Positions 44,181 to 63,693 of a stretch of DNA of 64,000 nucleotides are shown piece after piece. The first letter of the stretch is position 1. The number at the start of each line of letters is the position of its first letter. Under the pieces are notes generated by a model. It was given only the letters and a program-made list of their open reading frames with translations, was not told the origin of the DNA and made no database searches. This DNA comes from Oscillospiraceae bacterium (GTDB lineage Bacteria > Bacillota > Clostridia > Oscillospirales > Ruminococcaceae): positions 1-64,000 of the forward strand of contig JAGBCL010000117.1 of the NCBI GenBank assembly GCA_018110825.1, read 5' to 3'. A program made the translations under genes and the position numbers.

Positions 44181-45812
44181 ATGGCATTTGATTATTTTTA
44201 TAATCAAGAAATGGAGCAGCATATATTCTTTCAGATGCCGCACTTGCTGTTTGAAAACAACCTGAACACTTTATCTATAAATGCAAAATTCTTGTATTCG
44301 GTTCTGCTTGAAAGAGCAAAGCTTAGTTACAAGAATGGTTGGTTAGATGATAAAGGCAGAGTATATATCCAGTATGCTCAGGCTGATTTAATTAAGCTTC
44401 TGAACTGTGGCAGAACAAAGATGTCAGAATACTTCGGGGAGCTTGATGAAGCAAAGGGCGGTGTCGGTCTGATAGAACGTAAGCAGAAGAACGGTATCGG
44501 AAAAGGTGACATTATCTATGTCAAGAACTTTGCAAGCTCTCTCGATGAAGATATTGCAGAGGGTTCGCAATACGGATATTTTCACAATATGGATAATCTC
44601 CGTTTCAAGTATTTTCAAGTTCCGAAAATGCTTTTTGTTGATGAGAATATCAGAAATATTTCCAACATTGCAAAGATGATATATGTCTTTCTTCTCGACA
44701 GAAGTATGCTGTCTGCCAAGAATGGTTGGAAAGATAAAGACGGACGTATATATGTTCTGTTTCCTCAGAAAGAGCTACAGGAGCTTGTAGGCTGTAGTGA
44801 AAGAACTATACGAAAAGCTCTTAACGAATTGGATATAAAAAGTGGTGTTGGTTTGATTGACCGCACTCGTCAGGGAATGAACAGTCCTGATATGATATAT
44901 CTCCTTGATTATACCACAAATCTGAAATACAGTAACAGCGAGAGTTGTGTTGAAACTGTCGAAAATGTTGATACTGTTGATAATTCATCAGTTTTCAACA
45001 GCGTGAACATCGGAGCGGCAAAATCTGAACATCAGGAAGTGCAAAATCTGAACATCGGAGCGGCAAATCCTGAACATCGGAGCGGCAAAATCCGAACACC
45101 TGAGCGGCAAAATCTGAACATCGGAGCGGCAAAATCTGAACATATATATAATAGTAATACTAATTATAGTAATCCTTATTATAGTAAGACTAATTCAGTC
45201 AATCAGTCTAATGTTCAGCCTGCCGAACTTGTTGAGAAAGGACAGACGGACAGACAGACTAATTACATTCCATTTTCAGATGTGTTATCAATGCTCGGTT
45301 ACGACTATGCTCAGTATATGTCGTATGAGCCAAAGAGCGAAGCAGACCTTTCATTCTATGATGAAGAACAAAGGCACACACAGTTGTGTACAATTCCCTA
45401 TTCGCTGAAATCAAACAGAACGGCGATGATAGAAGCTCTCAAGTTTTTATTTGCTCACAGCTATTATTCTTCTGACAGCACGGAGGAAAGAAATCATCTG
45501 TTAGAAGCTGTTATCCTTTCCCTTGCAGAAATGGTTGAACAGGATGTGCAAGAGTATCAGAAAGAGCGTGTACACTACTACACAATAATCGACAGGATAA
45601 ATGACATTGTACATACAACAAGCCTTATGGACTGGTTTGTGAGCTTTGAGCAGGAATGGTCAAGGATATTATCTGAACAGAAAATCAAATACAAGAGAGC
45701 ATATATGAAATCTTGTATTTGGAACTGGCTGAAAGATTATCAGCTTGATGAAAGCTGTATGAAGTGTGTCACGGTGACACACTTCAACGAAAAGGAAAAG
45801 GAGTGGTTGTAA
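44181..45812 (+). CDS. repA: RepA-like replication initiator with duplicated RepA_N domain (543 aa)
   Basis: Residues about 8-115 and 130-245 are two copies of the RepA_N winged-helix unit: each has F.(M/V)P..L(L/F), a NA K(F/M) helix, KNGW.D..GR.Y and a (K)GG VGLI end. RepA_N proteins start replication of Gram-positive plasmids. The middle (about 270-345) is encoded by 22-bp tandem repeats that are out of register with codons, followed by AT-rich DNA, as expected for an origin inside the gene. The C-terminal 180 residues form the usual second domain. GGAAGTG before ATG; the stop overlaps the next ATG by one base. Confidence 0.88.
   Translation: MAFDYFYNQEMEQHIFFQMPHLLFENNLNTLSINAKFLYSVLLERAKLSYKNGWLDDKGRVYIQYAQADLIKLLNCGRTKMSEYFGELDEAKGGVGLIERKQKNGIGKGDIIYVKNFASSLDEDIAEGSQYGYFHNMDNLRFKYFQVPKMLFVDENIRNISNIAKMIYVFLLDRSMLSAKNGWKDKDGRIYVLFPQKELQELVGCSERTIRKALNELDIKSGVGLIDRTRQGMNSPDMIYLLDYTTNLKYSNSESCVETVENVDTVDNSSVFNSVNIGAAKSEHQEVQNLNIGAANPEHRSGKIRTPERQNLNIGAAKSEHIYNSNTNYSNPYYSKTNSVNQSNVQPAELVEKGQTDRQTNYIPFSDVLSMLGYDYAQYMSYEPKSEADLSFYDEEQRHTQLCTIPYSLKSNRTAMIEALKFLFAHSYYSSDSTEERNHLLEAVILSLAEMVEQDVQEYQKERVHYYTIIDRINDIVHTTSLMDWFVSFEQEWSRILSEQKIKYKRAYMKSCIWNWLKDYQLDESCMKCVTVTHFNEKEKEWL
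45005..45137. repeat. Six 22-bp iterons inside repA
   Basis: Unit GAACATCGGAGCGGCAAAAT plus CT. Copies start at 45005, 45027 (23 bp, diverged), 45050, 45072, 45094 and 45116; a partial unit starts at 45138. Because 22 is not a multiple of three, each copy is read in a different frame, so the DNA and not the protein is conserved. Likely RepA binding sites. Confidence 0.85.
45151..45195. repeat. Three AT-rich 15-bp repeats next to the iterons
   Basis: ATAGTAATACTAATT, ATAGTAATCCTTATT and ATAGTAAGACTAATT in direct tandem, right after the iterons. The stretch is almost pure A+T and is a good candidate for the strand-opening element of the replication origin. Confidence 0.75.
45764..45782. repeat. 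Element palindrome, copy 1
   Basis: GTGTGTCACGGTGACACAC, arms of 9 bp around a central G, inside the last codons of repA and 30 bp before the pcfB start. Identical copies at 55397, 60339 and 63675. Confidence 0.9.
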
Positions 45813-46321
45813 TGGCAGATTTAGAAAGCCGAAAAACTATAGGAGTAATAATTGAATGTGCAAAGCTTACTCCTGAAATATTCCAACAGGCTATAGACGA
45901 TATGCTAAAAAATATGACGGATAAAAAGTCAAAGGGTAAAACAACTCTTAAAAAGCTTATGCAAAATGGCAAGGTTGACAGCATTGAAGTTACCGATAAC
46001 AATATCGGCAGTTTTGCAACAACGGCAAGAAAATATAATCTTAATTATGCCGTGAAGCGTATTCAGGATGAAAACGGAAAAAAGCAATACCTTGTCTGCT
46101 TCAATGGCAAGGATATTGATACAATGCAGAAAGCTTTCAAGGAATACTCATATAAGCAGACACATAAGAAAGAGACTATGTTTAATAAAGCAAAGGTTGC
46201 AGCTATTGAAGTTCAAAGTCAGAAAGAAGAAATTATGGAAATGCTTCGTGAAGCAATGGGACAACGGGACAGACAGAAGTCTCACAAAAAAGAACGTAAG
46301 TCAAAAGAGCTTTCTTTGTAA
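45812..46321 (+). CDS. pcfB: PcfB family protein, DUF3801 (169 aa)
   Basis: Homologue of PcfB of pCF10-type conjugation systems. The core (about 45-120) has KTTLKKLMQNGKVDSIEV, a FATTARKYNLNYAVKR helix and YLVCFNGKDIDTMQKAFKEY; the end is basic and helical. PcfB is thought to help bring the relaxosome to the coupling protein, and the coupling protein gene follows after 13 nt. AAAAGGAGTGG precedes the ATG. Confidence 0.85.
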   Translation: MADLESRKTIGVIIECAKLTPEIFQQAIDDMLKNMTDKKSKGKTTLKKLMQNGKVDSIEVTDNNIGSFATTARKYNLNYAVKRIQDENGKKQYLVCFNGKDIDTMQKAFKEYSYKQTHKKETMFNKAKVAAIEVQSQKEEIMEMLREAMGQRDRQKSHKKERKSKELSL

Positions 46322-46334
46322 ATGAGGTGCTTTC

Positions 46335-48173
46335 GTGAGTAATAAGAAAAAAACGTCATTGTTCCGTGAGGGCAGTATTCCATATAAAATGCTTGCGGAT
46401 TTAAAAAGCTTCTTTAAAAGCAAAACAAAATTTGACAAAAAATCGCTTATAAAGCATTTACCCATTCTTCTCTTTGCTTGGGGCGGAAATAAAATATACT
46501 GTGCATATCGTGTCTATGGTTTATCAATGGAAATGATGTCAGGATTAAAGAAAATGTTTTCAAATCCTTTGCCGAGTTTTCATAAAGCTGATATTCTCGC
46601 AGGAGTGGTTACATTCGGACTTGTAGAACTTTATTTGTACTTCAAGCGAAAAAACAGAAAGAATTACCGTGACAAAGAAGAATATGGTTCAGCTCGTTGG
46701 GCAACATCTAAAGACATTGAGCCGTATATGGATATGGATAATCCTGAAAATAACATTATCCTCACTCAAACTGAGGGATTGACAATGAATAGCAGAGTTC
46801 CTATTCCGAAATACAACAGAAATAAAAATATTCTTGTTGTCGGCGGCTCAGGTTCGTACAAGACAAGGGGTTTTGTAAAACCGAACCTAATGCAATGTCA
46901 CAGCTCCTATGTTGTAACTGATCCGAAAGGCACAGTTGTACTGGAGTGCGGAAAAATGCTTCAAAATGCAGGATATAAGATTAAAATCATAAACACAGTC
47001 AATTTTGATAAGTCTATGCACTACAATCCATTTGCTTACCTACATAGTGAGGAGGACATTCTGAACCTTGCAAATACGATTATCACCAATACCAAAGGTG
47101 ACGGTGATAAAAGCGGTGAAGATTTTTGGGTTAAAGCTGAAAGACTGCTTTACTGTGCATTTATTGCAGTCATTTACTATGAATTTCCGCAGGAAGAAAA
47201 GAATTTCGGCACTTTACTTTGGCTCATCAACCAATGTGAAACACGAGAAGATGATGAAACATTCAAAAATCGTGTAGACATAATGTTTGAAACGCTTGAA
47301 GAAAAAAAGGGTGAAGACCATTTTGCTGTGAGACAGTATAAAAAATACAAACTTGCCGCAGGAAAGACAGCGAAATCAATTCTCATTTCCTGTGGTGCGA
47401 GACTTGCACCTTTTGATATTGACAAGGTAAGAAAGATGATGGCTTATGACGAAATGGAGCTTGATACATTGGGAGATGCTAATCAGAAAACAGCTCTCTT
47501 TGTAATTGTTTCTGACACGTCAACTACATATAACTTTATCATTGCAATGATGTACACACAGCTTTTTAATTTGCTCTGTACCGTTGCTGACGATAAATAC
47601 GGCGGTAGACTGCCTACGCACGTTCGCTGTCTACTCGATGAGTTTGCAAATATCGGTCAAATTCCGAACTTTGATAAGCTCATTGCTACAATCCGAAGCC
47701 GTGAAATATCGGCTTGTATAATTTTGCAGTCCAAATCGCAACTCAAAGCGATTTATAAAGATAATGCCGATACCATTATCGGCAACTGTGACACCGAACT
47801 GTTTCTCGGAGGAAAGGAAAAATCGACACTTAAAGAGTTATCCGAAATTTTGGGTAAACAGACAATTGACCTTTTCACGACTTCTGAGACAAGAGGACAG
47901 TCACAGTCATCAGGGACTAACTATAACCGAACAGGAAGGGAGCTGATGTCTCAGGACGAAATTGCGGTAATGGACGGTTTCAAATGTATTATGCAAATTC
48001 GAGGAACAAGAGCGTTTTTCTCGGATAAGTATGATATAACCAAACACGAACGTTACAAAGAATTATCGGATTTCGATCCCAAAAACACATTTGACATAAC
48101 GGGATATGTCAAATCAAATCTCAAACTTAAAACCAATGACAATATAGAAATCATATCCCGAATGGTTTACTAA
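46335..48173 (+). CDS. VirD4/TraG-type conjugative coupling ATPase (612 aa)
   Basis: Two membrane segments (about 45-62 and 80-100), then the motor: Walker A VVGGSGSYKTRGF (about 168-180), Walker B CLLDEFANIGQI, and a SKSQLKAIYKDNADTIIGNC block typical of TraG/VirD4. It docks the DNA-relaxase complex to the secretion channel. GTG start after GAGGTG. Normal length. Confidence 0.95.
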   Translation: MSNKKKTSLFREGSIPYKMLADLKSFFKSKTKFDKKSLIKHLPILLFAWGGNKIYCAYRVYGLSMEMMSGLKKMFSNPLPSFHKADILAGVVTFGLVELYLYFKRKNRKNYRDKEEYGSARWATSKDIEPYMDMDNPENNIILTQTEGLTMNSRVPIPKYNRNKNILVVGGSGSYKTRGFVKPNLMQCHSSYVVTDPKGTVVLECGKMLQNAGYKIKIINTVNFDKSMHYNPFAYLHSEEDILNLANTIITNTKGDGDKSGEDFWVKAERLLYCAFIAVIYYEFPQEEKNFGTLLWLINQCETREDDETFKNRVDIMFETLEEKKGEDHFAVRQYKKYKLAAGKTAKSILISCGARLAPFDIDKVRKMMAYDEMELDTLGDANQKTALFVIVSDTSTTYNFIIAMMYTQLFNLLCTVADDKYGGRLPTHVRCLLDEFANIGQIPNFDKLIATIRSREISACIILQSKSQLKAIYKDNADTIIGNCDTELFLGGKEKSTLKELSEILGKQTIDLFTTSETRGQSQSSGTNYNRTGRELMSQDEIAVMDGFKCIMQIRGTRAFFSDKYDITKHERYKELSDFDPKNTFDITGYVKSNLKLKTNDNIEIISRMVY

Positions 48174-48221
48174 TTGTCGCACAAAAAAAGAATTTTAAAT
48201 TTACGGAGGAAAATTATTATG

Positions 48222-48488
48222 GATTTTTTTAAGGACGCTATTGACACACTTCAGATTGTACTCATTCTCATCGGTGCAGGACTTGGTGGTTACGGTATTG
48301 TAAACCTCCTTGAAGCATACGGTAGTGATAATGCCGCAGGTAAGTCTCAGGGTACAAAACAGCTTATGGCTGGCATTGGTATTGCTGCACTTGCTTTCGT
48401 ACTTATTCCCGGACTTAAAGACCTTATCGACGAACACACAGCAGCAGCAACAACAGGTGCAATAATCAATACATTCCTTTTGAGATAA
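48222..48488 (+). CDS. Maff2 family mobile-element protein (88 aa)
   Basis: Two hydrophobic helices (LQIVLILIGAGLGGYGIV and GIGIAALAFVLIPGL) and a central soluble stretch AYGSDNAAGKSQGTKQLMAG, as in the Maff2 family found next to virD4 in Tn1549/CTn2-like elements. Probably a small pilin- or channel-like subunit, by size and position. ATG at 48222 follows ACGGAGG. Confidence 0.85.
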   Translation, partial: DFFKDAIDTLQIVLILIGAGLGGYGIVNLLEAYGSDNAAGKSQGTKQLMAGIGIAALAFVLIPGLKDLIDEHTAAATTGAIINTFLLR

Positions 48489-48509
48489 CTTTTGTTTTCT
48501 CAAAGCAGA

Positions 48510-48536
48510 TAGCCGCCGCTTTTGCGGTGGCTGTTT
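48510..48536 (+). terminator. Hairpin between Maff2 and TrbL-like genes
   Basis: Nine-bp GC-rich stem AGCCGCCGC/GCGGTGGCT (48510-48518/48523-48531) with TTTT loop and a weak T-rich tail. Could be a partial terminator or an mRNA stabiliser that raises Maff2 level over downstream genes. Confidence 0.5.
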
Positions 48537-48563
48537 GTGTAATATGAACTGGAGGTGATTTAA

Positions 48564-49451
48564 GTGGTAGATGGTATTTTTGAAACTCTTGAAGAATGGT
48601 TGAGAAATCTTTTAGTTGGAGCTGTTCAAAAATGTCTTGAAAATGCAAGTACTACTATGGGTGATATGGTAGATGTAATGAATGAGAACATAACAGATAC
48701 ACCTCAGACTTGGAATAGCACTTTATTCAATACATTAGAAACAATATCACAAACAGCTATAGTGCCTATAGCTGTAGCTTTAATGGCAATTATTTTATGC
48801 TATGACCTTATTACTGCCACAATCGACAAAAATAATATGAAAGATACCGATATATCTATCTTTTTTAGATTTGGAATAAAAGCTTGGATAGCAACTTACT
48901 TCATAAATAATGTATTTACTATTGTCGGAGCTATATTTGAGCTTGGAGCTGATATAGCAGACAAAGCCCTAACTTCGCTTTTTGGTGAAAATCAAAAATT
49001 CAATGATATTTTGGCATCACAAGAATTTGAGGAAATGTTATCAGAGTGCGAGCTAATTGATTTAGCTGGAACTTGGGTATTATCATTTTGTGCGTATATT
49101 ATTACGTTAATAGTTATGTTGATAATCCTTATAGTAACGGCAGGACGTATGATAGAAATACTTGTATACTTCTGTGGTGCTCCCATTCCGTTTGCAACAT
49201 TTGCAAATAAAGAATGGAATAATGTCGGCTTCTCTTTTATAAAAAATATGTTTGCATTGGCTTTGCAAGCATTTTTCATCGTAATTATCGTTGCGATATA
49301 CATAATCCTGTTCAATGCAAATGTTTTAGAGCCAACGGATTTAGCAGGATTAACAGGCTCATTGTTAGAATGGATTTGTTACAGCGTTATTTGTTGCTTT
49401 ATGCTCCTTAAAACTGGTAGCATAGCTAAATCAATTTGCAATGCTCATTAG
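48564..49451 (+). CDS. TrbL/VirB6-like membrane protein (295 aa)
   Basis: Six membrane helices (first near 60-80, others between 105 and 290), N-terminal amphipathic helix. The place in the operon (after Maff2, before PrgI) and topology match the inner-membrane channel protein of Tn1549/CTn2-type ICEs. GTG start after GGAGGTGAT. Cargo path role inferred from family. Confidence 0.85.
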   Translation: MVDGIFETLEEWLRNLLVGAVQKCLENASTTMGDMVDVMNENITDTPQTWNSTLFNTLETISQTAIVPIAVALMAIILCYDLITATIDKNNMKDTDISIFFRFGIKAWIATYFINNVFTIVGAIFELGADIADKALTSLFGENQKFNDILASQEFEEMLSECELIDLAGTWVLSFCAYIITLIVMLIILIVTAGRMIEILVYFCGAPIPFATFANKEWNNVGFSFIKNMFALALQAFFIVIIVAIYIILFNANVLEPTDLAGLTGSLLEWICYSVICCFMLLKTGSIAKSICNAH

Positions 49452-49466
49452 AAAGGAGAAAAAGCA

Positions 49467-49859
49467 ATGGCTTTGTATATGAAAATTCCAAAAGATATGA
49501 ACCAAATCAAAGATAAAGCAGTATGGAAGTTTACCAAAAGGCAAGCGATATACTGCGGAATTGGACTTGCCCTTGCGTTTGCTACATATTGGCTGACATA
49601 TAAGGAAGTTGGTTCTTCAACAGCAGCGGTGCTTTTATTTTGTGTAGGTTCTCCCTTTTTCATCATAGGCAACTATGAAAAAAACGGACTTACATTTGAA
49701 AAAATAATTTCAAATCGAATAAGATTTGCGATTATGCCTAAAGTACGTCTGTATCGTTCAGAGAATATATACAGACAGATAATTGAAACTATCGAATACA
49801 ATGAGGAGGTTGAAATGCTTGAAACAGGCAGAAAAAAAGTCAACAACAGCAAAAAGTAA
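49467..49859 (+). CDS. PrgI family protein (130 aa)
   Basis: Short protein with two adjacent membrane helices (about 30-47 and 52-70: YCGIGLALAFATYWLTY and AAVLLFCVGSPFFII) and a cytoplasmic tail. The KIPKDMNQIKDKAVWKFTKRQ start is typical of PrgI, a VirB3-like partner of VirB4. AAGGAG precedes the ATG. The end overlaps the VirB4 gene. Confidence 0.9.
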   Translation: MALYMKIPKDMNQIKDKAVWKFTKRQAIYCGIGLALAFATYWLTYKEVGSSTAAVLLFCVGSPFFIIGNYEKNGLTFEKIISNRIRFAIMPKVRLYRSENIYRQIIETIEYNEEVEMLETGRKKVNNSKK

Positions 49860-52302
49860 AACAGTTCCGCTTTCATCGGCAGAGTACAAGGCAGTAAAAA
49901 AAGATGTTTCTGCCAAAAACAAACAGCAGTCTCGTAAAATACCACAGACTGCACAGCAGTCAATTCCCTTTGACCATATGACAAAAGACGGCATTGCAGT
50001 AACCAAAGAGTCTGAGAAAGTTTCAGTATTAGGCTTTTTATTTGGAAAGCAAAAGCCTACAGAAGCACGATACAGTAAGACAGTACAGTTTTATCAGGCT
50101 GATTATGAGATTTCTGACGTTCCGAAGCAGCAGTCCCTTTTTGCTAAATACTGTAATGTCATAAATCTATTTGACAGTACAATTAAATTTCAGATTTCCA
50201 CAATAAGTCTGACCAGTGAAGATGATATTGAGGATATAATAAAAATTCCCGATACTGAGGACGAGTATACTGATATTCGTACTGAATATTGCGAATATCT
50301 TAGAGAACGTATTGCAGAGGGTAGCAAGGGATTGGTAAAAGTGAATTACATCACTTTTTCAGTTACAGCAGACAACATTAAGAAGGCTCGCAATAGACTT
50401 GTCAGCATTGAGAAAGATATTATAGAATCATTTGCAGAAATGGACGTAACAGCCGTTTCTCTTAATGGTGAAGAACGACTTTTTGTAATGTACAAGATGC
50501 TTCATCAGTATTCTGATGAGCCGTTCTTCTGCAATATGGACACAATGGCTAAGTCGGGTATAATGCCAAAAGATTATATTGCTCCGTCCTCCTTGAACTT
50601 CTCCGATGAAAACTGTTTCAAGTGTGGGAAGTTCTACGGTTCGACTTTCGCAATAAATTTGGTGGCTTCTGAAATTTCAGACAGATTTCTCACTTCTATT
50701 ATGGATTCGGAAAATCCTATGGCTTTCAATATGCACTTAACAGCAGTTGATACGATAGAAGCGAAGAAATTTGTAAAAAACAAACTGTCCAATTTGGAAA
50801 AAGGTAAAATTGATATGCAGAAGCAAGCTGTACAGAAAGGCTATGATATGGATATTCTTCCTCCCGATATGAAAACATTCATAACAGAGCTTAATACCGT
50901 TCTCGATGAGCTTGAAAACAAGAATGAGCGTATGTTTATAGTTACGCTCCTTGTAACCAATTTTGCCAAGAGCAGAAAAGCACTTGAAGCATATAACGAA
51001 AGTCTCAAAAGAAATATTGTACAAGCTAATTCAGCTCTTATTCCTCTTGACTATATGCAGGATTTAGCATTTACATCAATGCTGCCGCTTGCTGAGAACA
51101 GGATAATGATTGAACGTAGATTGACAACCAGTTCCGTTGCTATCTTTCTTCCCTTTACCGTGAAAGATATTTCAATGGACGGAGAAGCAATTTGCTATGG
51201 TATAAATCCAGTTTCAGGAAATCCCGTATATGCAAACAGAAAACAATTGGCTAATCCAAATGCTGTAATTCTTGGAACTCCCGGCGGTGGTAAGTCAATG
51301 GCTACAAAATGTGAGATTTCAAACAACTTCTTATTTACAAATGATGATATTTTCATTTGTGATCCCGAAGATGAATATCATCCGCTTGTAAAAGAGTTCA
51401 ACGGTCAGGTTATAGATATTAGTTCATCAAGTGACAATTATATCAATCCTATGGATATTGAAATTGATACCGATGACGATGATGTAATCGGTGTAAAATC
51501 GGAATTTATTCTTTCTCTTTGCGAATTGATAGTAGGAGGAAAGGGACTTGATAGTGAGGAAATATCAATTATCGACCGTTGTGTGCGTGAGCTTTATACA
51601 GATTATCTCACAGAAATGGCATACGCAACGGAAGAAGATTTTAAGGCGAATATGCCTATTCTTTCGGATTTACAACGTAAACTTTATGAAAGTGGTGCAG
51701 AATGTGCTAAACGTGTGGCAAATTCCCTTGAAATCTATACTACAGGTTCTTTGAATATCTTCAATCACAGAACAAATATAGATTTGAATAATAGATTAAT
51801 CTGCTTTAACATCAAAAAGCTTAAGGGAAATCTTCGTAAAATCGGAATGCTCGTTATTCAAGACCAAGTTTGGAACAGAGTTGCTAAGAACCGTGGCAGA
51901 AAGTACACTTGGTACTATATGGACGAGTTTCATCTTCTGCTTAAAGAGGAACAAACTGCAAAATATTCTGTGGAGATGTGGAAACGTTTTAGAAAATGGC
52001 ACGGTATTCCAACTGGCATTACTCAGAACGCAAACGACTTTCTTTCTTCTCCCGACGTTGAAACAATCTTTAAAAACTCTGACTGCATTATAATGCTTCG
52101 TCAGGCGGCAGGAGATATTGATATTCTTGCAGAAAGATTGAATATTTCGCCTACACAGCAAAAGTATATTGAAGGTGAAGGTAAACGAGGTTGTGGCTTA
52201 ATATACTTTGGTGGAAGAACAATTCCATTTGACAATACGTTGTCAACAGATATGAAGCTGTATAAGCTTATGACTACAAAGCCTGAAGAAGCTTTGATAT
52301 AA
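49819..52302 (+). CDS. VirB4-like conjugation ATPase (827 aa)
   Basis: Motor ATPase of the type IV channel. Walker A ILGTPGGGKSMATK (about 484-497), Walker B WYYMDEFHLLL, and a GITQNANDFL block; the N-terminal half is the VirB4 dimer/assembly domain. The start is most likely TTG at 49819, nine bases after GAGGAGG; the frame has an ATG at 49801 that overlaps the ribosome site. The gene overlaps prgI by about 40 nt. Confidence 0.93.
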   Translation: MKQAEKKSTTAKSKTVPLSSAEYKAVKKDVSAKNKQQSRKIPQTAQQSIPFDHMTKDGIAVTKESEKVSVLGFLFGKQKPTEARYSKTVQFYQADYEISDVPKQQSLFAKYCNVINLFDSTIKFQISTISLTSEDDIEDIIKIPDTEDEYTDIRTEYCEYLRERIAEGSKGLVKVNYITFSVTADNIKKARNRLVSIEKDIIESFAEMDVTAVSLNGEERLFVMYKMLHQYSDEPFFCNMDTMAKSGIMPKDYIAPSSLNFSDENCFKCGKFYGSTFAINLVASEISDRFLTSIMDSENPMAFNMHLTAVDTIEAKKFVKNKLSNLEKGKIDMQKQAVQKGYDMDILPPDMKTFITELNTVLDELENKNERMFIVTLLVTNFAKSRKALEAYNESLKRNIVQANSALIPLDYMQDLAFTSMLPLAENRIMIERRLTTSSVAIFLPFTVKDISMDGEAICYGINPVSGNPVYANRKQLANPNAVILGTPGGGKSMATKCEISNNFLFTNDDIFICDPEDEYHPLVKEFNGQVIDISSSSDNYINPMDIEIDTDDDDVIGVKSEFILSLCELIVGGKGLDSEEISIIDRCVRELYTDYLTEMAYATEEDFKANMPILSDLQRKLYESGAECAKRVANSLEIYTTGSLNIFNHRTNIDLNNRLICFNIKKLKGNLRKIGMLVIQDQVWNRVAKNRGRKYTWYYMDEFHLLLKEEQTAKYSVEMWKRFRKWHGIPTGITQNANDFLSSPDVETIFKNSDCIIMLRQAAGDIDILAERLNISPTQQKYIEGEGKRGCGLIYFGGRTIPFDNTLSTDMKLYKLMTTKPEEALI

Positions 52303-55393: not shown

Positions 55394-55396
55394 AAG

Positions 55397-55415
55397 GTGT
55401 GTCACGGTGACACAC
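55397..55415. repeat. Element palindrome, copy 2
   Basis: GTGTGTCACGGTGACACAC, 3 bp after the stop of the surface protein gene and 15 bp before the DUF4315 start. Confidence 0.9.
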
Positions 55416-55429: not shown

Positions 55430-55663
55430 ATGGTTAAGTCAAAAAACACAAAGAAAATCGAAAAGCTCAAATCTGATATTGTTCAGGTTGAAAATGAAAT
55501 TGCTGAAAAGCAGAAAAAACTCGAAGAAATGAAAAAGGAAATGACGGAGCTTGAAAACGTTGAGATCGTTTCTCTTGTCCGTGGTGCTTCATTGAGCGTT
55601 GACGAAATTGCAGAAATCGTTGAAGCATATGCTCCTGTTGTAAAGAAAGGAATTGATAACTAA
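55430..55663 (+). CDS. DUF4315 family protein (77 aa)
   Basis: A charged coiled coil (KIEKLKSDIVQVENEIAEKQ, onward to about residue 45) followed by a short C-terminal helical part VSLVRGASLSVDEIAEIVEA. DUF4315 is a standard member of this conjugation operon. AAAGGAAAT precedes the ATG at 55430; the stop overlaps the next ATG by one base. Role unknown. Confidence 0.88.
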   Translation: MVKSKNTKKIEKLKSDIVQVENEIAEKQKKLEEMKKEMTELENVEIVSLVRGASLSVDEIAEIVEAYAPVVKKGIDN

Positions 55664-56592
55664 TGAAAAAGAAAATTATTATTTTTCTCACAGCATTAAC
55701 AACAACATTTGGTTGTATGTCTTTCGCTCCTGTCTATGCAGAGGGTGAAGATATTCTGATTGACGAACCTCTTTATGAAGAATATACAACTACAGAAACA
55801 ACTACTACAGAAACAACTACCACAACTGAAAACAGCATAAGTGAGGAAGAATTTAATGCCAAGAGTGAAGAAATTCAGGCTCAGATAGAAGAAATCTATC
55901 GTTTGTTTGAGGAAAACGGTTATGCCATAGAGGGTGTAACAGGAAATGTTGAGGGACTGAACACAGAAGTTCAGGGAATACAGACTTCCCTTGATAATCT
56001 TTATTCTCTTATCCAAACGATGAAAACTTCAAAGACAAACAGTTCGTCATCGTCCTCATCTGTTTCCAAAACTCCAACAAAAAAGGAAACGGAAGAAACA
56101 ACAGAACCGCTTCACGCTGAACCTAACACAGAACCTAACGGCTATCTTGTAGAAAAGGTGGAAAAAGAGCCTGATAAGCGTGATTTCATCAGCGTAACAA
56201 CAAGAGACGGTCACGTTTTCTATATTGTCATTGACTATGAGGGAGAAAACAAGAATGTTCATTTTCTTAATACAGTAGATACTGCGGACTTACAGTATTT
56301 GCTGTCAGATGGTGAAAATGCTGTAGCAGTAACTGCGGCAGTAGAAAAGGCTGAACCTGAAACAACAACAGCAGTTGCAGATGTTAAGGCAAGTGATAAG
56401 GGAGAGCCTGAGAAGAAAAATAATAATCTTGTCTTATACATAATCGGAGGAGCTTTCGTTATCTTCTTTTTAGTTTATGCAAAGCTTAAGCTGTCAAAGA
56501 AAAAGAAGTTTGATGATACTGACGATGATTTTTATGAAGAACCTGAATCCTATATAAATGAAGATTCGGAGGAAAATAACGATGAATATTAA
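55663..56592 (+). CDS. DUF4366 family cell-surface protein (309 aa)
   Basis: Signal peptide (residues 1-25, ending PVYA), Thr/Glu repeats (TTTETTTT region, about 38-55), a coiled coil (about 60-120), a Ser-rich spacer, then the DUF4366 core (DFISVTTRDGHVFYIVIDYE, onward to TADLQYLL). One membrane helix near 262-280 and a short acidic cytoplasmic tail. An outside protein anchored by its C-terminus, normal for this ICE family; probably helps donor-recipient contact (inference). Confidence 0.88.
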   Translation: MKKKIIIFLTALTTTFGCMSFAPVYAEGEDILIDEPLYEEYTTTETTTTETTTTTENSISEEEFNAKSEEIQAQIEEIYRLFEENGYAIEGVTGNVEGLNTEVQGIQTSLDNLYSLIQTMKTSKTNSSSSSSSVSKTPTKKETEETTEPLHAEPNTEPNGYLVEKVEKEPDKRDFISVTTRDGHVFYIVIDYEGENKNVHFLNTVDTADLQYLLSDGENAVAVTAAVEKAEPETTTAVADVKASDKGEPEKKNNNLVLYIIGGAFVIFFLVYAKLKLSKKKKFDDTDDDFYEEPESYINEDSEENNDEY

Positions 56593-56893: not shown

Positions 56894-57394
56894 ATGCATC
56901 TCAAAACAAAAAAAGCTATTACAGCTATTGTTGGATTAACAACTGGTGCAGTAGTAGGTTTCGCTATTAAAAAGATACGTTCACATAGAAAAGAAAAATT
57001 AAAACTTGATGAATTTTCAAGTGTGGATAAATCAGAATTAAGAAATGTTATTTGCTATGTTAAATGCAATGATTACAGAATAATAGACCGTATTCCTAAG
57101 TGCCTTATTATGTATGATAATATGGTTATCATCAGGAACACAGACGGTACAAAGGCTATAGTAGAACGTGTTGTTCCTGATATAAATGGTAATCGTATTT
57201 TAACTGAAATTGATTGGGATTGCCTTGAAATAACTGATTCGCCAAGAGTAACAGAACGTGATGCGTATATTGTTGGTTCTCGTGCGGTTTCTGAGTTTAT
57301 TATGAGTAACTCAGAAAATACGCAGTATAACACAATCTATAGATTTTTTCTTAATAAAAAATCATTGCCACCTGAAATAGAGGAGAAAATATGA
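56894..57394 (+). CDS. Membrane-anchored hypothetical protein (166 aa)
   Basis: N-terminal helix AITAIVGLTTGAVVGFAI with a basic stop-transfer (KKIRSHRKEK), clearly related to the preceding protein in this part only. The rest is a soluble alpha/beta domain of about 130 residues, unrecognised. AAAGGGG precedes the ATG. The stop overlaps the nuclease lipoprotein ATG (ATGA). Confidence 0.65.
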   Translation: MHLKTKKAITAIVGLTTGAVVGFAIKKIRSHRKEKLKLDEFSSVDKSELRNVICYVKCNDYRIIDRIPKCLIMYDNMVIIRNTDGTKAIVERVVPDINGNRILTEIDWDCLEITDSPRVTERDAYIVGSRAVSEFIMSNSENTQYNTIYRFFLNKKSLPPEIEEKI

Positions 57395-57886
57395 AATTAT
57401 TGACCAAACTACTTTGGTTTCTTCTCCCGACTGCTCTTATAACAGCGTGTACGCCGTATACTGACATAGAAACTGTGACAATATTCAGATGTCTATGAGG
57501 AATCTGAACCGCAATTATACGGCTTATATGACGTTGTAAGAGTGGTTGACGGTGATACAATAGTTGTCAACATCGAGGGAGAAGAAACGAAGGTGCGTTT
57601 CATCGGAGTGGATACGGCTGAAAGCGTTCACCCCGATGATAGCAAAAACAACGAAAGCGGCAAAGAAGCTTCACAATGGACTTCTGATTTGCTGACAGGA
57701 CAGCAAGTATATTTGGAATATGACATTGACAAGACAGACGATTACGGCAGAACACTTGCTTATGTATATTTGTCTGACGGCAGAATGGTACAGGAAGAAC
57801 TGCTGAAAGCAGGAATGGCTGAATTAATGACAATTCAGCCAAATTCAAAATATGCAGATAGATTTTACGATATAAAACAGGAGTGA
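57391..57886 (+). pseudogene. Thermonuclease-like (SNase) lipoprotein, frameshifted
   Basis: ATG at 57391 (after GAGGAGAAAA) begins a lipoprotein signal MKLLTKLLWFLLPTALITAC, lipobox LITAC, but the frame stops at 57496-57498. The SNase domain lies one frame over, open from 57479 to 57886: VVRVVDGDTIVV, KVRFIGVDTAES, then TDDYGRTLAYVYLSDG with the catalytic Arg/Asp/Glu plan. One extra base near 57481 explains the break. The intact form would be a surface-anchored nuclease of about 164 residues. A GTG at 57542 could give a shorter cytoplasmic form. Nearby relatives in ICEs are full length. Confidence 0.8.
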
Positions 57887-57890
57887 AAAT

Positions 57891-58409
57891 ATGGCACATT
57901 TCATACATGACAGAGAAATAGCATTAGCAAAAACAGATGTTATCGTTAATGCGGCAAACGGTTGCGGCTATATGGGCGGAGAAACTTGCACATCCGAACT
58001 GCACAGAGGTGTTGCTGAACACCTTAATTTCTATACTCACGGAGCTATGGAAAAAGAAGCATTAAAGGTTGCAAGAAAATACAATAAAATACCTTCGTGG
58101 CTCATCGGTACAAAAGCAGGTAATTTCTTTGTTACCGATAGTTTCGGACTTGATTGTAAGGTTGTAATTCACGCTGTAACAATGCGTTATCCTGCAAGCT
58201 CCAGTAATATTAAACGAGTTGCTGAGGTTGTACATAAGATTTTTGAGTATTGTAATAGTTCAGGATACAAAAGCATATCAATTCCCTTGCTTGGCTGTGG
58301 AACAGGAGGTTTGTCTGCTGAAAAAGTTGCAGGTCTTATTCGTAATAAAGCTGCTAAGTATCCTGATATTGACGTTTACATTTATATCAATCGAGAAAAT
58401 AAATTATGA
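57891..58409 (+). CDS. Macro domain protein (172 aa)
   Basis: ADP-ribose-binding macro domain: DVIVNAANGCGYMGG (about residues 17-31) and PLLGCGTGGLSAEK (about 136-149) form the ligand loops; the Asn and Gly-rich loop of active de-ADP-ribosylases are present. GGAG precedes the ATG, 4 nt after the nuclease frame. Might protect against ADP-ribosylating defence or toxin systems (inference). Confidence 0.88.
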   Translation: MAHFIHDREIALAKTDVIVNAANGCGYMGGETCTSELHRGVAEHLNFYTHGAMEKEALKVARKYNKIPSWLIGTKAGNFFVTDSFGLDCKVVIHAVTMRYPASSSNIKRVAEVVHKIFEYCNSSGYKSISIPLLGCGTGGLSAEKVAGLIRNKAAKYPDIDVYIYINRENKL

Positions 58410-58432
58410 AATAAAAAATGACAGGTGATTAT

Positions 58433-58720
58433 ATGTTTTGGGAAAAATTTCAGTATTTAGCAGAATTAAAAGGAATGAAACCTCACGCTGTGTTAAAAGA
58501 ACTCAAAATATCATCGGGTTCTGCAAACAACTGGAAAAAAGGTACTATTCCCAACGGTGATGCATTATGTAAAGTAGCTGATTATTTTAATTGTTCAGTT
58601 GATTATTTATTGGGAAGAACAGATTTTCCTAATATGGACAAAAAAGAGGATATTTCAATTTCTAAAATCACTATTGAAATCACTATTAACGGAAAAAGAT
58701 ATGAATTATCAGAAAAGTGA
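58433..58720 (+). CDS. XRE family HTH regulator (95 aa)
   Basis: Helix-turn-helix at about 8-62 (LAELKGMKPHAVLKELKISS, WKKGTIPNGDALCKVADYF, VDYLLGR), then a short beta tail. ATG at 58433 follows AGGTGAT; the ATG at 58418 has no ribosome site. A candidate for the regulator of the element's palindromes, but GntR-type protein at 60014 is another. Confidence 0.88.
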   Translation: MFWEKFQYLAELKGMKPHAVLKELKISSGSANNWKKGTIPNGDALCKVADYFNCSVDYLLGRTDFPNMDKKEDISISKITIEITINGKRYELSEK

Positions 58721-58735
58721 GAAGCGAGGTAAGTG

Positions 58736-59263
58736 ATGTTTAAGAGATTCAAATACAAAAAGCTTTATGACAAAGCTGTGCATTATTTGGATAATGTAGA
58801 TTATTCAGAACTAATCAAATACAGCGAAAAAATACAGTCGTATCATGTTAATGAGAGTATGGATTTGCCACTGGGAGAAACGGCTATATTTCATCATTTA
58901 CCTTTAAAGAACAAGGACGGCGATTATCTTTCAGATGATAACTGGGACTTGTCGAAAGAAGAAAAAAATGAAATTCACGAACTTTTGAATAAATTAAACG
59001 AATATTATGATGCAATCTACATAGTTCGTTATTACACACCAAAAGGCAAATTTGTAAAAAAAGGAAATGAATTTAAGTATGAAGTACTTCCTCCTTGGAC
59101 TGTATTCCCACACTATTGGGCAATGTCATTGGGGTGGAGAATGGGCGATGGTGAAGAATATTTGGAAATATATCACAGTTACGTTGATACTCTCTCCGAT
59201 AAGCAGTATGAAGCTTATGCAAACAAATATCCAAAACCTGAATACTTGAATATATGGAGGTAA
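58736..59263 (+). CDS. Hypothetical protein of the element (175 aa)
   Basis: Soluble, rich in Tyr, Lys, Asp and Trp; a helical start (KKLYDKAVHYLDNV), a middle block LPLGETAIFHHLPLKNKDG and a C-terminal helix LSDKQYEAYANKYP. No family recognised. ATG at 58736 follows GCGAGGT. Cotranscribed with the next gene (2 nt gap). Confidence 0.65.
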   Translation: MFKRFKYKKLYDKAVHYLDNVDYSELIKYSEKIQSYHVNESMDLPLGETAIFHHLPLKNKDGDYLSDDNWDLSKEEKNEIHELLNKLNEYYDAIYIVRYYTPKGKFVKKGNEFKYEVLPPWTVFPHYWAMSLGWRMGDGEEYLEIYHSYVDTLSDKQYEAYANKYPKPEYLNIWR

Positions 59264-59265
59264 AT

Positions 59266-59997
59266 ATGATAGAAAATCTTATCAATGAATTAGCAAAAGC
59301 CAATACAAAAGACGAAATTCTTTCATACAAATCGCAAATATCAAAGCTGTACAATGAATTATATGAGAAGATATGTTCTCAGAACAGCTGTGTATGTATA
59401 CAAAATTATAGGGACATTAAAATGCTGCACGAATTGCGTATGCCTATGATGGCATATTCCGATTCTTTTTATGACAAATTTGCAATTCCTTTCCTCAAAG
59501 AGCATAATTCCGAAACAATAGATATTCTTGAATTTGTCGTATTATTCTATATTCTTCAAGTTATAAATCTTCTTGAAAATGGCTTCTTCAATAAAGCAAG
59601 CAAATGGATTTATAAGAATTCTAAATTTGACCATACAGAAAAAATAAATCTTACTGATAACACAAAAAATTTATTTTGTTTGCTATGGTGTTATTTTATG
59701 GAAGTTATTAACATCAAAGATGACACTCGTCAATTTACAATAGCGTATGATGAAGAATTTTATTTGAATGATGAAAAATATGAAGAAGTAATTGATGCAA
59801 TATATGAAAGTCTTAAGTGTGACAGCAGGTATTTTTTAGTAATGGGCAAAATCCTTGGACAGTATAGACTTCGATTTACTAAAATGAAGTATATCATAAA
59901 ATATCAGCCATTGTTTGTCAATGTTGGCTACGAATATTTTTGGACTCTTATACAGCAAAACCAAAACGTCCCCGAAGATACAGGTACGCTTAAATGA
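59266..59997 (+). CDS. Hypothetical protein of the element (243 aa)
   Basis: Helical, acidic, AT-rich gene; no family recognised. Visible pieces: LINELAKANTKDEILSYKSQ, an ETIDILEFVVLFYILQVIN helix, and C-terminal GKILGQYRLRFTKMKY. ATG at 59266 follows GGAGG inside the end of the preceding gene's spacer. Accessory cargo of the element. Confidence 0.65.
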   Translation: MIENLINELAKANTKDEILSYKSQISKLYNELYEKICSQNSCVCIQNYRDIKMLHELRMPMMAYSDSFYDKFAIPFLKEHNSETIDILEFVVLFYILQVINLLENGFFNKASKWIYKNSKFDHTEKINLTDNTKNLFCLLWCYFMEVINIKDDTRQFTIAYDEEFYLNDEKYEEVIDAIYESLKCDSRYFLVMGKILGQYRLRFTKMKYIIKYQPLFVNVGYEYFWTLIQQNQNVPEDTGTLK

Positions 59998-60013
59998 TAT
60001 ACGGAGGTGAATT

Positions 60014-60250
60014 ATGCTGAGAGGAATGAGAATTAAATGGCACTCTGATATTTCTTACTCAGAGCAAATTGAGCAAAAAATAAAGAAACAGATTTCTTTA
60101 GGATACTTGGAAAAAGGTGAACAGTTACCTCGTTGTAAGGTTCTTGGAGAAAAATTGAAAGTTTGCGGTATAACAGTATATAGAGCATATCGCAAACTGA
60201 TTGAAGCTGGACTTGTTGTTCGTAAGGATAACGATTTTTATGTAAACTAA
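60014..60250 (+). CDS. Minimal GntR family DNA-binding protein (78 aa)
   Basis: Only the GntR winged helix is present: SYSEQIEQKIKKQISLGYL, LPRCKVLGEKLKV, TVYRAYRKLIEAGLVV. There is no ligand domain, so it may act as a constitutive DNA binder. GGAGGTGAAT precedes the ATG. It lies 90 bp before palindrome copy 3. Confidence 0.85.
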   Translation: MLRGMRIKWHSDISYSEQIEQKIKKQISLGYLEKGEQLPRCKVLGEKLKVCGITVYRAYRKLIEAGLVVRKDNDFYVN

Positions 60251-60338
60251 AATGGTTGCGGATTATATGGGAAACACGGGATAATTATTAGGATTACAAA
60301 CGGAGATTTCAACGTTTTATAATAGATAAATTTCAAAG

Positions 60339-60357
60339 GTGTGTCACGGTGACACAC
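60339..60357. repeat. Element palindrome, copy 3
   Basis: GTGTGTCACGGTGACACAC, 27 bp before the start of the gene at 60384, which opens the topB block. Confidence 0.9.
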
Positions 60358-60383
60358 AGATAATCTGCAAAGGAAGATAAGGT

Positions 60384-60653
60384 ATGAGCAATAAAGAAGA
60401 AAGAAGAAAGCTAATTTCATTCACAGAGGACGGAGAGCCTTTTTTGAAAGAAATCAAAAAAATAGCAAAAGAAACAGGGCTGACCGAAAGCATAATACTT
60501 GAAAACAGTTATTGCTTAGGTTTAGTTCTGTTATATTCTCCTGAAAAAGTAACTGAACTGAAAGAAATGCTTAAAAAGAGGTTCAAGGCGATTTCAGGTG
60601 AAAAATCCGAAAGAATAATATCATTATTAACTGAAATGGAGGATAAGGAATGA
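60384..60653 (+). CDS. Small hypothetical protein before topB (89 aa)
   Basis: Highly charged and helical (LISFTEDGEPFLKEIKKIAK, then ILENSYCLGLVLLYSPEKVT). Could be a small ribbon-helix-helix-like regulator, but no motif is decisive. AAGGAAGAT precedes the ATG; the end overlaps topB (ATGA), so the two are coupled. Confidence 0.65.
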   Translation: MSNKEERRKLISFTEDGEPFLKEIKKIAKETGLTESIILENSYCLGLVLLYSPEKVTELKEMLKKRFKAISGEKSERIISLLTEMEDKE

Positions 60654-62962
60654 AGAAGTTAATAATTGCTGAAAAGCAAAGCGTAGGTAAAACGATTGCA
60701 AAAGCACTTGGAATATCAGGAGATAGCAATGATTACATTGAGGGCGGCGAATATATCATTTCGTGGGGTTCAGGACACCTTATAGGTCTTGTCACACCTG
60801 ACGAATACGGTGAAGCGTATCAGAATTTTTGGACATTTGATAATCTGCCGATTATTCCGTCAGAATGGAAGTTCGGAACAGATGTTTCAAAAATGAAACG
60901 TCTTAATGTACTGAAAAAGCTTATGTCAGATCCGTCCGTAGATGAAATTATATGTGCAACGGACGCAGGACGTGAGGGAGAATGTATTTTCCGATACATA
61001 TACAATTATCTGCATTGCAGAAAGCCTGTTAAACGTCTTTGGCTCTCATCAATGAAAGATACAGCTATTCGTGAGGGTATGGCAAATTTAAAGCCTGACA
61101 GTCACTATGACCATCTTTATTATGCAGGACTTTGCAGAAATAAGGCTGACTGGCTCGTGGGTATGAATGGCTCACGATTATTTTCAAACCGTTACAAGAG
61201 TGTACTGAATATCGGTCGTGTTCAGACACCAGTTCTTGCTATGATTGTGCAGCGAGACTATGATGTAGCTCATTTCGTTAAGCAGAAATTCTATACTGTT
61301 GAGCTTGATTGTGGTGATTTTACAGCTACTTCGTTAAGAATTGATGATGAAAGCTATGCAAAAGGGCTTGCTGAAATGTGTAACGGAAAGAGTGCTTGTG
61401 TTAGGGATATAAAAAAGGAAATCAAGACTGTAAATCCCCCTACCCTTTACGATTTGAATACGCTTCAGCGTGAAGCAAACAGGAAATACGGATATACAGC
61501 AAAGCAAACTCTTGAATATGCTCAGTCACTTTACGAAGCAGAAATCATATCATATCCCCGAACTGATAGTAATTATCTTACTGAGGATATGGGAGACACC
61601 GCAAGCGAAAAAATTCAGATTATTCAGCAGATGTTTTCTGAATTGAATTTTGGAATTACAAATCCTGACGTGAAACGTTGTCTTAACAACAAAAAAGTTG
61701 GTGAACATTACGCTTTATTCCCACTCGGAATTGAAAGTGCGGACTTAAATGCACTTCCGAGAGGTGAAAGAAATATCCTTTTCCTCATAGCAGCACGACT
61801 TATACTTGCAACGGCAGAACCGCACAAGTATGAAAAAGTTACAGTTGACATTTCAGCGGAAAACATAGATAGTGTTCCTTTTTATGCGGTCGGAAAGACA
61901 ATTCTTGAAAATGGCTTTAAGGAGCTTGAAAACCGCATAAACGGTAAGAAAGAAAAGGAAAACACAACTGCTCTGCCTGAGCTTGAAGTTGCACAGTTAT
62001 TCAATCCTGTTACTGCCAAATCAGCGGAACATTGGACTACACCGCCTAAACCATATACAGAAGATACATTGCTTAAAGCAATGGAAACAGCAGGAAACAT
62101 AGATTATGAGAGCGACTCCGATGTAGAAAAGAAAGGTCTTGGTACTCCTGCCACAAGAGCTGATATTATCGAAAATCTTGTCAAGCGTGGATATATTGAA
62201 CGTGATGAAAAGAAACTTATAGCAACAGAAAAGGGTGTCAATCTGATTAGCGTTGTTCCCGATGAGGTTAAGTCACCAAAGCTTACAGCTGATTGGGAGA
62301 CATATTTACAGCACATTGAAAAGGGACAGGCTGATCCTGATAGTTTTATGGAGAAAATTGAAGCATTTACAAGAAAGCTTGTTTCAGATTATTCAGAAGT
62401 CGATGAAGAAGTCGATTTTTCTGTAAATTCTGTAATCGGCACTTGTCCTCGTTGTAAGCAGAATATCCTTGAGGGAAAAATAAACTTTTATTGTGAAAGC
62501 GGTAAGGACGGATGCGGTTTTTCCGTATGGAAAGAAATGAAATATCCTAACACCAAAATTACAGCTAAAAAAATGAAAGAACTGCTCACTAATGGTAAGG
62601 CTGAGCTTAAAGCAAAATCAAAAGAGGGCAAGGATTATACAGCGATTTTTAACCTTGAAGATAACGGAAAGTATGTAAATCTTGTTTATTCTCCCGACAA
62701 TAATAAATCATCAGGCAAATGTCCGAAATGCCGTAGTGAGATTAAGAAAGGTCAGAACGGATATTATTGCACAGGAAAGTGCGGTATGAATGTAGGAAAG
62801 GTGTTCGGCAAGGAGCTGACGGAAAATCAGCTTGAAAGACTGCTTGACGGTAAAGAAATTTCTTATACAGCAAATAAGCGTAAAACCGTTGTACTGCCTG
62901 AAATCGAACAGAACAACTATAACGGTAAAACATATTATCAATGGAAAGTAAAGAAGGATTGA
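60650..62962 (+). CDS. topB: DNA topoisomerase III (770 aa)
   Basis: TOPRIM domain with IAEKQSVGKTIAKALG and ATDAGREGECIFRYIY (about 103-118); catalytic Tyr in IISYPRTDSNYL (about 301-312); LGTPATRADIIENLVKRGYI (about 494-513). Two Cys-rich ribbons at the end: CPRCKQNILEGKINFYC and CPKCRSEIKKGQNGYYC. Relaxes and separates strands during element replication and transfer; topB is a standard ICE gene. ATG overlaps the preceding stop. Confidence 0.95.
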   Translation: MKKLIIAEKQSVGKTIAKALGISGDSNDYIEGGEYIISWGSGHLIGLVTPDEYGEAYQNFWTFDNLPIIPSEWKFGTDVSKMKRLNVLKKLMSDPSVDEIICATDAGREGECIFRYIYNYLHCRKPVKRLWLSSMKDTAIREGMANLKPDSHYDHLYYAGLCRNKADWLVGMNGSRLFSNRYKSVLNIGRVQTPVLAMIVQRDYDVAHFVKQKFYTVELDCGDFTATSLRIDDESYAKGLAEMCNGKSACVRDIKKEIKTVNPPTLYDLNTLQREANRKYGYTAKQTLEYAQSLYEAEIISYPRTDSNYLTEDMGDTASEKIQIIQQMFSELNFGITNPDVKRCLNNKKVGEHYALFPLGIESADLNALPRGERNILFLIAARLILATAEPHKYEKVTVDISAENIDSVPFYAVGKTILENGFKELENRINGKKEKENTTALPELEVAQLFNPVTAKSAEHWTTPPKPYTEDTLLKAMETAGNIDYESDSDVEKKGLGTPATRADIIENLVKRGYIERDEKKLIATEKGVNLISVVPDEVKSPKLTADWETYLQHIEKGQADPDSFMEKIEAFTRKLVSDYSEVDEEVDFSVNSVIGTCPRCKQNILEGKINFYCESGKDGCGFSVWKEMKYPNTKITAKKMKELLTNGKAELKAKSKEGKDYTAIFNLEDNGKYVNLVYSPDNNKSSGKCPKCRSEIKKGQNGYYCTGKCGMNVGKVFGKELTENQLERLLDGKEISYTANKRKTVVLPEIEQNNYNGKTYYQWKVKKD

Positions 62963-63023
62963 GATAAAACTATGAATTTAACAAACAATAATATAAATAC
63001 TTATCTAAGTAGGAGTAATTTGA

Positions 63024-63665
63024 ATGTTTAGTAGTGAAGAAGAAAAATCAGCAGAGCTTTCAGAAGAAATTGCTAATGGTAAAGGCTGTCTTGTTCTTGA
63101 CCTTGCCTGTTTCTTTCCGTTTACAAATGAGCTGACATTTGATTTCTTTATAGGAGAGGATCTGAACGATAAGAAAATAAATCACAGATACCCTAATAAA
63201 AAATGGTATACAATCAGCAAAAAACAAGGTAGAAAAGTAAGTAAATTAGGTTATCCGTATTTCTTCGACTTGAAAGACGGTGAAGATGTGGCAATGTCAT
63301 TAAATATAAAAGTCGGTTTCAGAACGGAAGAAGATGAAACTGATACAGAGCCAAAGAATACCATACACTTTACTTTACCTCTCAGCGTTAATGTTACCAA
63401 GGATAATCCAGTTTGTGGACTGACTTTCAAATTCTTTATCGAAGATGAGGACTGCCATTTTGAGCTATATTCACATCAACCTGACGAAACGGTAGAAGGC
63501 TGTTGGACACCGCACATTTGGTATAGCAAAGTGACTGATACAGATTATGACAAATCATCTTGTACAATCCTTAGTAAACCTGAAAAGTTGGAAAACAAGG
63601 TGCTTTTATATAAAGATGTCATTGAACCTTTTGCTTGTAAAATTGATGAATTATTATTAGGTTAA
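63024..63665 (+). CDS. Hypothetical protein of the element (213 aa)
   Basis: Beta-rich soluble protein with acidic start (SSEEEKSAELSEEIANGKG) and blocks LACFFPFTNELTFDFFIGED and CGLTFKFFIEDEDCHFELYS. No family recognised. Start ATG 63024 after AGGAG. Lies between topB and the primase-like gene. Confidence 0.65.
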   Translation: MFSSEEEKSAELSEEIANGKGCLVLDLACFFPFTNELTFDFFIGEDLNDKKINHRYPNKKWYTISKKQGRKVSKLGYPYFFDLKDGEDVAMSLNIKVGFRTEEDETDTEPKNTIHFTLPLSVNVTKDNPVCGLTFKFFIEDEDCHFELYSHQPDETVEGCWTPHIWYSKVTDTDYDKSSCTILSKPEKLENKVLLYKDVIEPFACKIDELLLG

Positions 63666-63674
63666 AAAATAATG

Positions 63675-63693
63675 GTGTGTCACGGTGACACAC
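63675..63693. repeat. Element palindrome, copy 4
   Basis: GTGTGTCACGGTGACACAC, here with extra flanking GG/CC pairing, 9 bp after the previous stop and 62 bp before the next start. A small hairpin (63711-63730) follows. Confidence 0.9.

Follow-up and report, generated by a model that had tools for sequence, protein, structure and literature searches.

On plasmid RK2, the ParB-family protein KorB acts as a cytidine triphosphate (CTP) clamp and silences genes for replication and for transfer; its operators lie 4 to 10 bp or 45 to more than 1,000 bp upstream of promoters (PMC11790492), and 12 of them are reported for RK2. SGI1 has parS mimics that are served by the ParB of a helper plasmid (PMC10954446); and the specificity of ParB and Noc is set by a few residues at the DNA interface (PMC7383237). 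Here we describe a 19-bp palindrome, GTGTGTCACGGTGACACAC, that is repeated in a conjugative element within a 64,000-nucleotide stretch (the window) of contig JAGBCL010000117.1 from an Oscillospiraceae bacterium (assembly GCA_018110825.1). From sequence comparison, we propose with a probability of about three in four that it is a parS-type site of a ParB-family protein, one that is encoded by a set of conjugative elements and by a megaplasmid in Ruminococcus and its relatives. That ParB binds the palindrome seems very likely from the same comparisons, and partition is probably among the functions of the site; KorB-like regulation of transfer genes is possible, at somewhat less than even odds. 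Tn1549-like elements carry genes among gut Firmicutes, and to our knowledge their control and partition are poorly understood. No published account of this site, or of dispersed parS sites in such elements, was found in searches of the open-licence literature. A ParB site code common to integrative and conjugative elements (ICEs) and a megaplasmid would be a testable handle on control and partition, and the pairing of each ParB with its own site, at a spacer of 0, 1, or 2 bp, would be a natural experiment on the evolution of ParB specificity and geometry.

The layout appears to match the KorB, SGI1, and ParB/Noc cases, and gene and site anatomy suggest membership in ParABS. The likeness to KorB and its operators (O_B) lies in the ParB family and in the presence of several sites per conjugative replicon, associated with the genes for replication and transfer. 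The half-site, however, differs, the carriers here are Gram-positive ICEs and a megaplasmid, and the sites hug stop codons. As in ParABS systems of the Spo0J/parS type, parA and parB occur together and sites of the megaplasmid pRUMAL01 lie near parA and a replication gene, whereas the half-sites here are separated by a spacer of 1 (or 0 or 2) bp and the sites are dispersed over the transfer region instead of forming one cluster. What we take to be the canonical parS, TGTTTCAC, differs from our half-site at one of eight bases. In a profile comparison with solved structures, the ParB clade described below was closest to Noc (2.8e-23), followed by Spo0J (6.7e-21) and KorB (PDB 8qa8, 5.9e-9), and ParB was also matched; its half-site and recognition helix are nevertheless other than those of Noc and the Noc-binding sites, and the clade ParBs sit on mobile elements.

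The palindrome and a clade of ParB proteins

A scan of the window confirmed the four mismatch-free copies reported by the initial annotation (Table 1) and found no further place at up to 3 mismatches. The expected count was 0 in 100 window shuffles, which puts four copies far above chance. The distances to the next start codon, and the position of copy 1 inside the 3' end of the repA coding sequence, were also as first described. A fifth exact copy lies at 81975 on the same contig, outside the window, and the next long open reading frame (ORF) begins about 220 nt downstream of it. The exact 19-mer was found nowhere else in the whole assembly (3,116,958 bases, 124 contigs). One match with 3 mismatches was found on another contig, and the reversed-pattern control gave 0. 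Exact copies are thus found only on the element, and no random scatter over the host genome was seen. Read in the direction of transcription, the centre base is G in all five copies.

The strongest evidence for recognition by ParB is that helix and site appear to shift together at equal overall divergence. The recognition helix S[KR]KT[MIL]YRY is present in 11 of 11 ParBs with half-site TGTGTCAC, down to 29% identity (G013 and the first Ruminococcus bicirculans ParB), and altered helices pair with the half-sites TGTGCCAC or TTGTCC. Ten of these 11 are clade ParBs with TGTGTCAC-n-GTGACACA and include near-duplicate rows (G006/G020, G009/G012, and G004/G008). The ParBs of pRUMAL01 and G178 and the second R. 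bicirculans ParB were found by homology alone and their palindromes were searched afterwards, de novo in the latter two. In G178 (30% identity, helix STRSIYRY), parAB is followed by six copies of TGTGCCACGTGGCACA. For the second R. bicirculans ParB (30% identity, helix SPKTLYRC), six copies of TTGTCCnnGGACAA occur within 38 kb; one TTGTCCnnGGACAA stands at the 3' end of its own parB, and the element of the first R. bicirculans ParB contains one extra copy. R. flavefaciens FD-1 has four copies of TTGCTACttGTAGCAA, one within its divergent parB, a case that we treat as weak. When six sets were shuffled 40 times each, no palindrome reached more than 2 copies. The covariation sample holds only two clear half-site changes and two spacer changes. 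In FD-1 a palindrome different from the 19-mer, TTGCTACTTGTAGCAA, is read four times, at L095:935, 1292, 6333, and 9429, one copy being inside the divergent parB.

The nearest plasmid relative, found by protein alone, is the ParB of Ruminococcus albus 7 pRUMAL01 (51% identity, helix SRKTIYRY). The 50 kb around its gene contain no copy of the 17-bp core of the palindrome at up to 3 mismatches and five copies of TGTGTCAC-GC-GTGACACA, two of them directly upstream of parA. The megaplasmid has 41 copies in total, all with spacer 2. Between 170 and 270 kb, 33 of 33 sites lie outside listed genes, as judged by an incomplete PLSDB gene table, and 18 of the sites fall, partly at a 132-bp period, in 241901-248195, a 6.3-kb stretch that has no ORF of 70 residues and precedes a replication initiation gene. 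The region 237478-247064 (L110:17478-27064) reads as a dense array of 23 sites with 285-bp and 132-bp periods.

We compared 18 site-bearing element groups all against all, with the window element and that of genome G006 being nearly the same ICE and L081 and L098 to L101 left out. ParB is common to 10 of 18 groups, FD-1 counting as a divergent member, and ParA to 8 of 18; a type IV coupling protein (T4CP) and a large helicase-like protein are also found in 10 groups each. Among 23 site-bearing records, 10 matched the ParB model at E<=1e-45, 9 of them among the 10 records with at least six sites and 1 among the 13 with fewer. The six-site cut was picked after the counts were known, and nine of these carriers supplied the ParBs for the model; independent evidence therefore comes from the low background, from G020, and from the helix covariation. 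The background amounts to 2 of 394 genomes of the order, G178 and G246, the latter sharing contig coordinates with the site-bearer G013.

By domain content the clade is that of a ParABS ParB: ParB_N was found in six of six scanned members (Pfam, 3.1e-15 to 4.9e-7) and a helix-turn-helix (HTH) family at E<=1e-3 in five, the exception being the divergent FD-1 protein, and GHxR and NIQR are invariant in nine aligned rows. A ParA gene also stands beside parB in pRUMAL01. The palindrome lies at the parB stop in five carriers (G004, G006, G008, G009, and G020); in R. bicirculans it separates parA from parB. In three stretches (L084:996-2933, L072:6608-8449, and L094:3660-5201), the parB frame extends in-frame upstream into unrelated N-terminal regions of about 190 to 310 residues.

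On our proposal of a parS-type site, ParB dimers would sit on each half-site, load as CTP clamps, and form with the element's ParA a partition complex that segregates the replicating form. The five sites of the window's contig stand at the gene borders of repA, the transfer genes, topB, and the primase and downstream genes, a multi-operator arrangement of the KorB type. Since the replication and transfer blocks have sites at their borders, ParB bound there might also lower the transcription of these blocks, as KorB does on RK2. A broader and still more tentative idea is a Gram-positive counterpart of KorB, in which one ParB clamp would both segregate and silence conjugative elements by way of gene-border sites that number up to dozens, half-site and spacing (0, 1, or 2 bp) would have diversified with the helix, and elements with a common site code might disturb each other or profit from each other.

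Placement of the sites relative to genes and RNA signals

The copies had first been described as marks of new gene blocks. They do precede gene starts, but 105 of 140 copies sit between same-strand genes, often just behind the upstream stop. Among these 105 oriented sites, 18 contain the stop and 41 have it within 5 nt; it lies at 6 to 20 nt in 15, at 21 to 60 nt in 7, beyond 60 nt in 20, and elsewhere in 4. Many copies also directly abut the next Shine-Dalgarno sequence. The 59 sites with the stop inside or within 5 nt, together with this abutment, would fit an intercistronic hairpin acting at the RNA level in processing, stability, attenuation, or translation control. The same stop-hugging occurs in G001, a phage fragment without ParB. 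In 102 distinct oriented sites G.U pairs outnumber A.C pairs (26 to 14, with 12 other mismatches), but the excess is not significant (p=0.08), and the centre base is not fixed by strand (G 85, C 44, A 6, and T 5 over 140 copies). The array of pRUMAL01 in ORF-free DNA and the covariation with ParB helix and spacer length argue further against RNA, and the processing hairpin offered by the initial annotation is weakened; we consider an RNA-level explanation improbable. Nor do the window sites resemble an intrinsic terminator or a known RNA motif: none of the four is followed by a T-run, as first noted, and no Rfam family was matched there up to E=1, one weak S15 leader match beginning 80 nt past copy 2. 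Some copies in other elements do have T-runs after them.

Promoter positions count against the regulatory part of the proposal. Near-consensus promoters lie within 110 bp downstream of 10 of 136 sites (control, 0.6) and at none of the five ICE sites, where the promoters seen are weak (score 9 to 9.5) or, for copy 1, absent; copy 3 has a weak TTACAA-18-TATAAT upstream. Weaker promoters accompany 34 of 136 sites (control, 20.6). In both promoter counts, the control shuffles kept adjacent bases together no further than in pairs. In 14 of 33 long gaps (100 to 700 bp) the site still hugs the stop, and uniform placement predicts 1.2, on crude gene calls. A promoter-proximal operator at each site is unsupported.

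Another repressor borne by the element (XRE, GntR, or RepA) could use the palindromes as operators in the manner of the stoperators of mycobacteriophage L5, which are many short, asymmetric repressor sites at gene borders, served by a different protein family. Several palindromes at gene borders of one element, copy 1 in repA, and a GntR gene just before copy 3 would suit such an arrangement. The sites here, however, are palindromic and linked to ParB, and relatives of XRE, RepA, and GntR occur in only 4, 4, and 2 of the 18 carrier groups, against 10 for ParB. We rejected all three as the common binder and regard an operator of this kind as very improbable. The general idea of a site shared by an element-wide DNA-binding protein, as first suggested, is supported; the XRE and GntR candidates named for it are not common to the carriers. 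Host ParBs of the Spo0J/Noc type were rejected as well, since their helices differ and the exact site is found only on the element.

Carriers without the clade ParB

The window element is mostly 98.5 to 99.6% identical to pieces of the G006 element (short pieces, 94% and 78%), and its left end is likely at 43680, where the alignment stops. On the right, 85480-86832 (1.35 kb) is common to contig C136 of G006, which reaches, within 1 kb, a clade parB whose end carries a site; we infer that C136 is part of the same element in G006. No ParA was found on this 8.4-kb parB contig. The window's contig enters a Mu-like prophage at 86833, where a Mu-type transposase gene and the junction were read, and then chromosome. 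A search of the window's whole genome for the G006 continuation recovered only the 75 bp that precede the junction. With no such continuation and no clade ParB in the assembly (best, 28% identity), the gene must have been lost or rearranged or is missing from the assembly; loss or failed assembly next to the prophage seems probable to us. Alternatively, the sites are served by the ParB of another replicon. The prophage occupies 86833 to about 120.4-120.9 kb of this contig (C109; L007 and L008), between the element on the left side and, on the right side, an apparent truncated aminotransferase gene of the chromosome; its flanks are mismatched, so a deletion, a rearrangement, or an assembly join must lie there.

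The absence of a clade ParB from the window's assembly is one of several observations that weigh against the proposal of a parS-type site. No close ParA was found in this genome either (best, 36%), and a further parAB-like pair (contig C33, 6241-7345) has another helix and is neither the host Spo0J-type pair (contig C1) nor of the clade. Thirteen of the 23 site-bearing records are without a clade ParB, 12 of them with at most four sites. The thirteenth, phage fragment G001 (IMG/VR), has eight copies and is a misfit. FD-1 has two orphan copies (L095:8583 and 8904) beside its divergent parB and no clade ParB. No ParB was found in the stretches of five further site-bearing genomes, which cover only parts of those genomes, in the 8-kb stretches of the Elusimicrobia carriers, or, at the cut used, in Elusimicrobia genome G007. 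Palindromes of at least 3 copies were absent within 10 to 20 kb of 19 more distant ParBs, in regions chosen by us, and around seven distant plasmid ParBs (L111 to L117), so the dispersed layout is not general to ParB.

The absence of a clade ParB from 12 of the 13 records that have one to four sites, the lack of one in the window's assembly, and the precedent of SGI1 (PMC10954446) would also fit orphan parS mimics, with an element, or a class of them, that has no ParB of its own and relies for partition on a plasmid in the same cell, as SGI1 does on IncC plasmids. Against this stand the near-identical G006 element, with its clade parB on a contig that overlaps the right-hand portion of the window element by 1.35 kb, and the clade ParB encoded in 9 of 10 site-rich records. 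We consider orphan mimics unlikely.

The phage fragment G001 (L077:4372-8044) reads as a tailed phage, with terminase- and portal-like genes recognized by eye and several near-copies at stop codons. After at least two of the copies comes another repeated hairpin, which differs by paired changes (GTGATCTG..CAGATCAC versus GCAGTCTG..CAGGCTGC, by eye). No Rfam match was found at the G001 sites, with two sub-threshold matches nearby, and a ParB-profile search of viral contigs gave no relative.

Distribution and features of the element

An exact scan of 257 billion bases with the centre base free gave 2 viral and 51 genome stretches, and this search among relatives, which the initial annotation had called for, recovered the palindrome across mobile elements of Ruminococcus and its relatives. 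The stretches come mainly from Ruminococcus, further Oscillospiraceae, and uncultured Clostridia; two metagenome-assembled genomes labelled Alistipes and three Elusimicrobia stretches are also among them. The palindrome is mostly intergenic in these mobile elements and has many copies on some contigs. Singles in Granulicella, Chloroflexi, and Alicyclobacillus are near chance level (about 4 expected in 257 billion bases, by estimate). The stretches derive from 27 genomes or records, 22 of which were scanned whole at up to 2 mismatches and have 1 to 24 copies each; the others are the three just named, Alistipes senegalensis, and a second Elusimicrobia genome. Forty fetched stretches, the window, and three stretches of its own contig hold 144 copies at up to 4 mismatches (reversed pattern, 0) and 140 at up to 3, five of these, on L091 to L093, being the G006 counterparts of the window element's five. 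The Elusimicrobia contigs (L017:210, L033:2278, and L054:1138) show the same palindrome with similar A/T-rich flanks.

Among 297 evenly drawn genomes of the family, the 17-bp core was found in 3 and a related T4CP (E<=1e-120) in 57. Only 2 of these 57 have the core, so the site is no property of the T4CP or of Tn1549-type transfer genes, and a fixed tie to the same transfer genes, which had been put forward for checking, does not hold.

Table 1. Palindrome copies and genes of the window element
Feature	Position	Strand	Context or support
RepA_N-type replication initiator, copy 1 at its end	44181..45812	+	Pfam RepA_N 9.4e-44
Palindrome copy 1 (predicted parS-type)	45764..45782	+	In repA 3' end; 29 nt before DUF3801 (PcfB-type) ATG
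DUF3801 (PcfB-type) gene	45812..46321	+	Pfam DUF3801 7.1e-24 on ORF 45764-46321
VirD4-type coupling protein (T4CP)	46335..48173	+	Pfam T4SS-DNA_transf 9.5e-60
VirB4/TraG-type ATPase	49783..52302	+	Pfam P-loop_TraG 1.8e-14
Palindrome copy 2 (predicted parS-type)	55397..55415	+	3 nt past stop of 1028-aa gene; 14 nt before ATG
CD1107-like mobile-element protein	55663..56592	+	Pfam CD1107-like 1.3e-19
XRE-type HTH protein (first candidate binder)	58418..58720	+	Pfam; relatives in 4/18 carrier groups
Minimal GntR HTH protein (first candidate binder)	60014..60250	+	Pfam; among 18 groups, relatives only in window element and near-identical G006
Palindrome copy 3 (predicted parS-type)	60339..60357	+	88 nt past GntR stop; next gene (89 aa, precedes topB) starts 26 nt on
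DNA topoisomerase, TopB type	60650..62962	+	Pfam Topoisom_bac 9.2e-111
Palindrome copy 4 (predicted parS-type)	63675..63693	+	9 nt past stop of 213-aa gene; 62 nt before primase-like gene
DUF3991/Toprim primase-like gene, 5' part	63756..64000 (runs on past window)	+	Pfam on L006:2-2662

The name PcfB for the DUF3801 gene and the DUF4366 type for the CD1107-like gene are assumed by us. Two ORFs among the transfer genes (57542-57886 and 57891-58409) presumably encode a staphylococcal-type nuclease and a macro-domain protein. Past the window, the contig continues with the primase-like gene, a large helicase-like gene, and sigma-factor genes, followed by copy 5.

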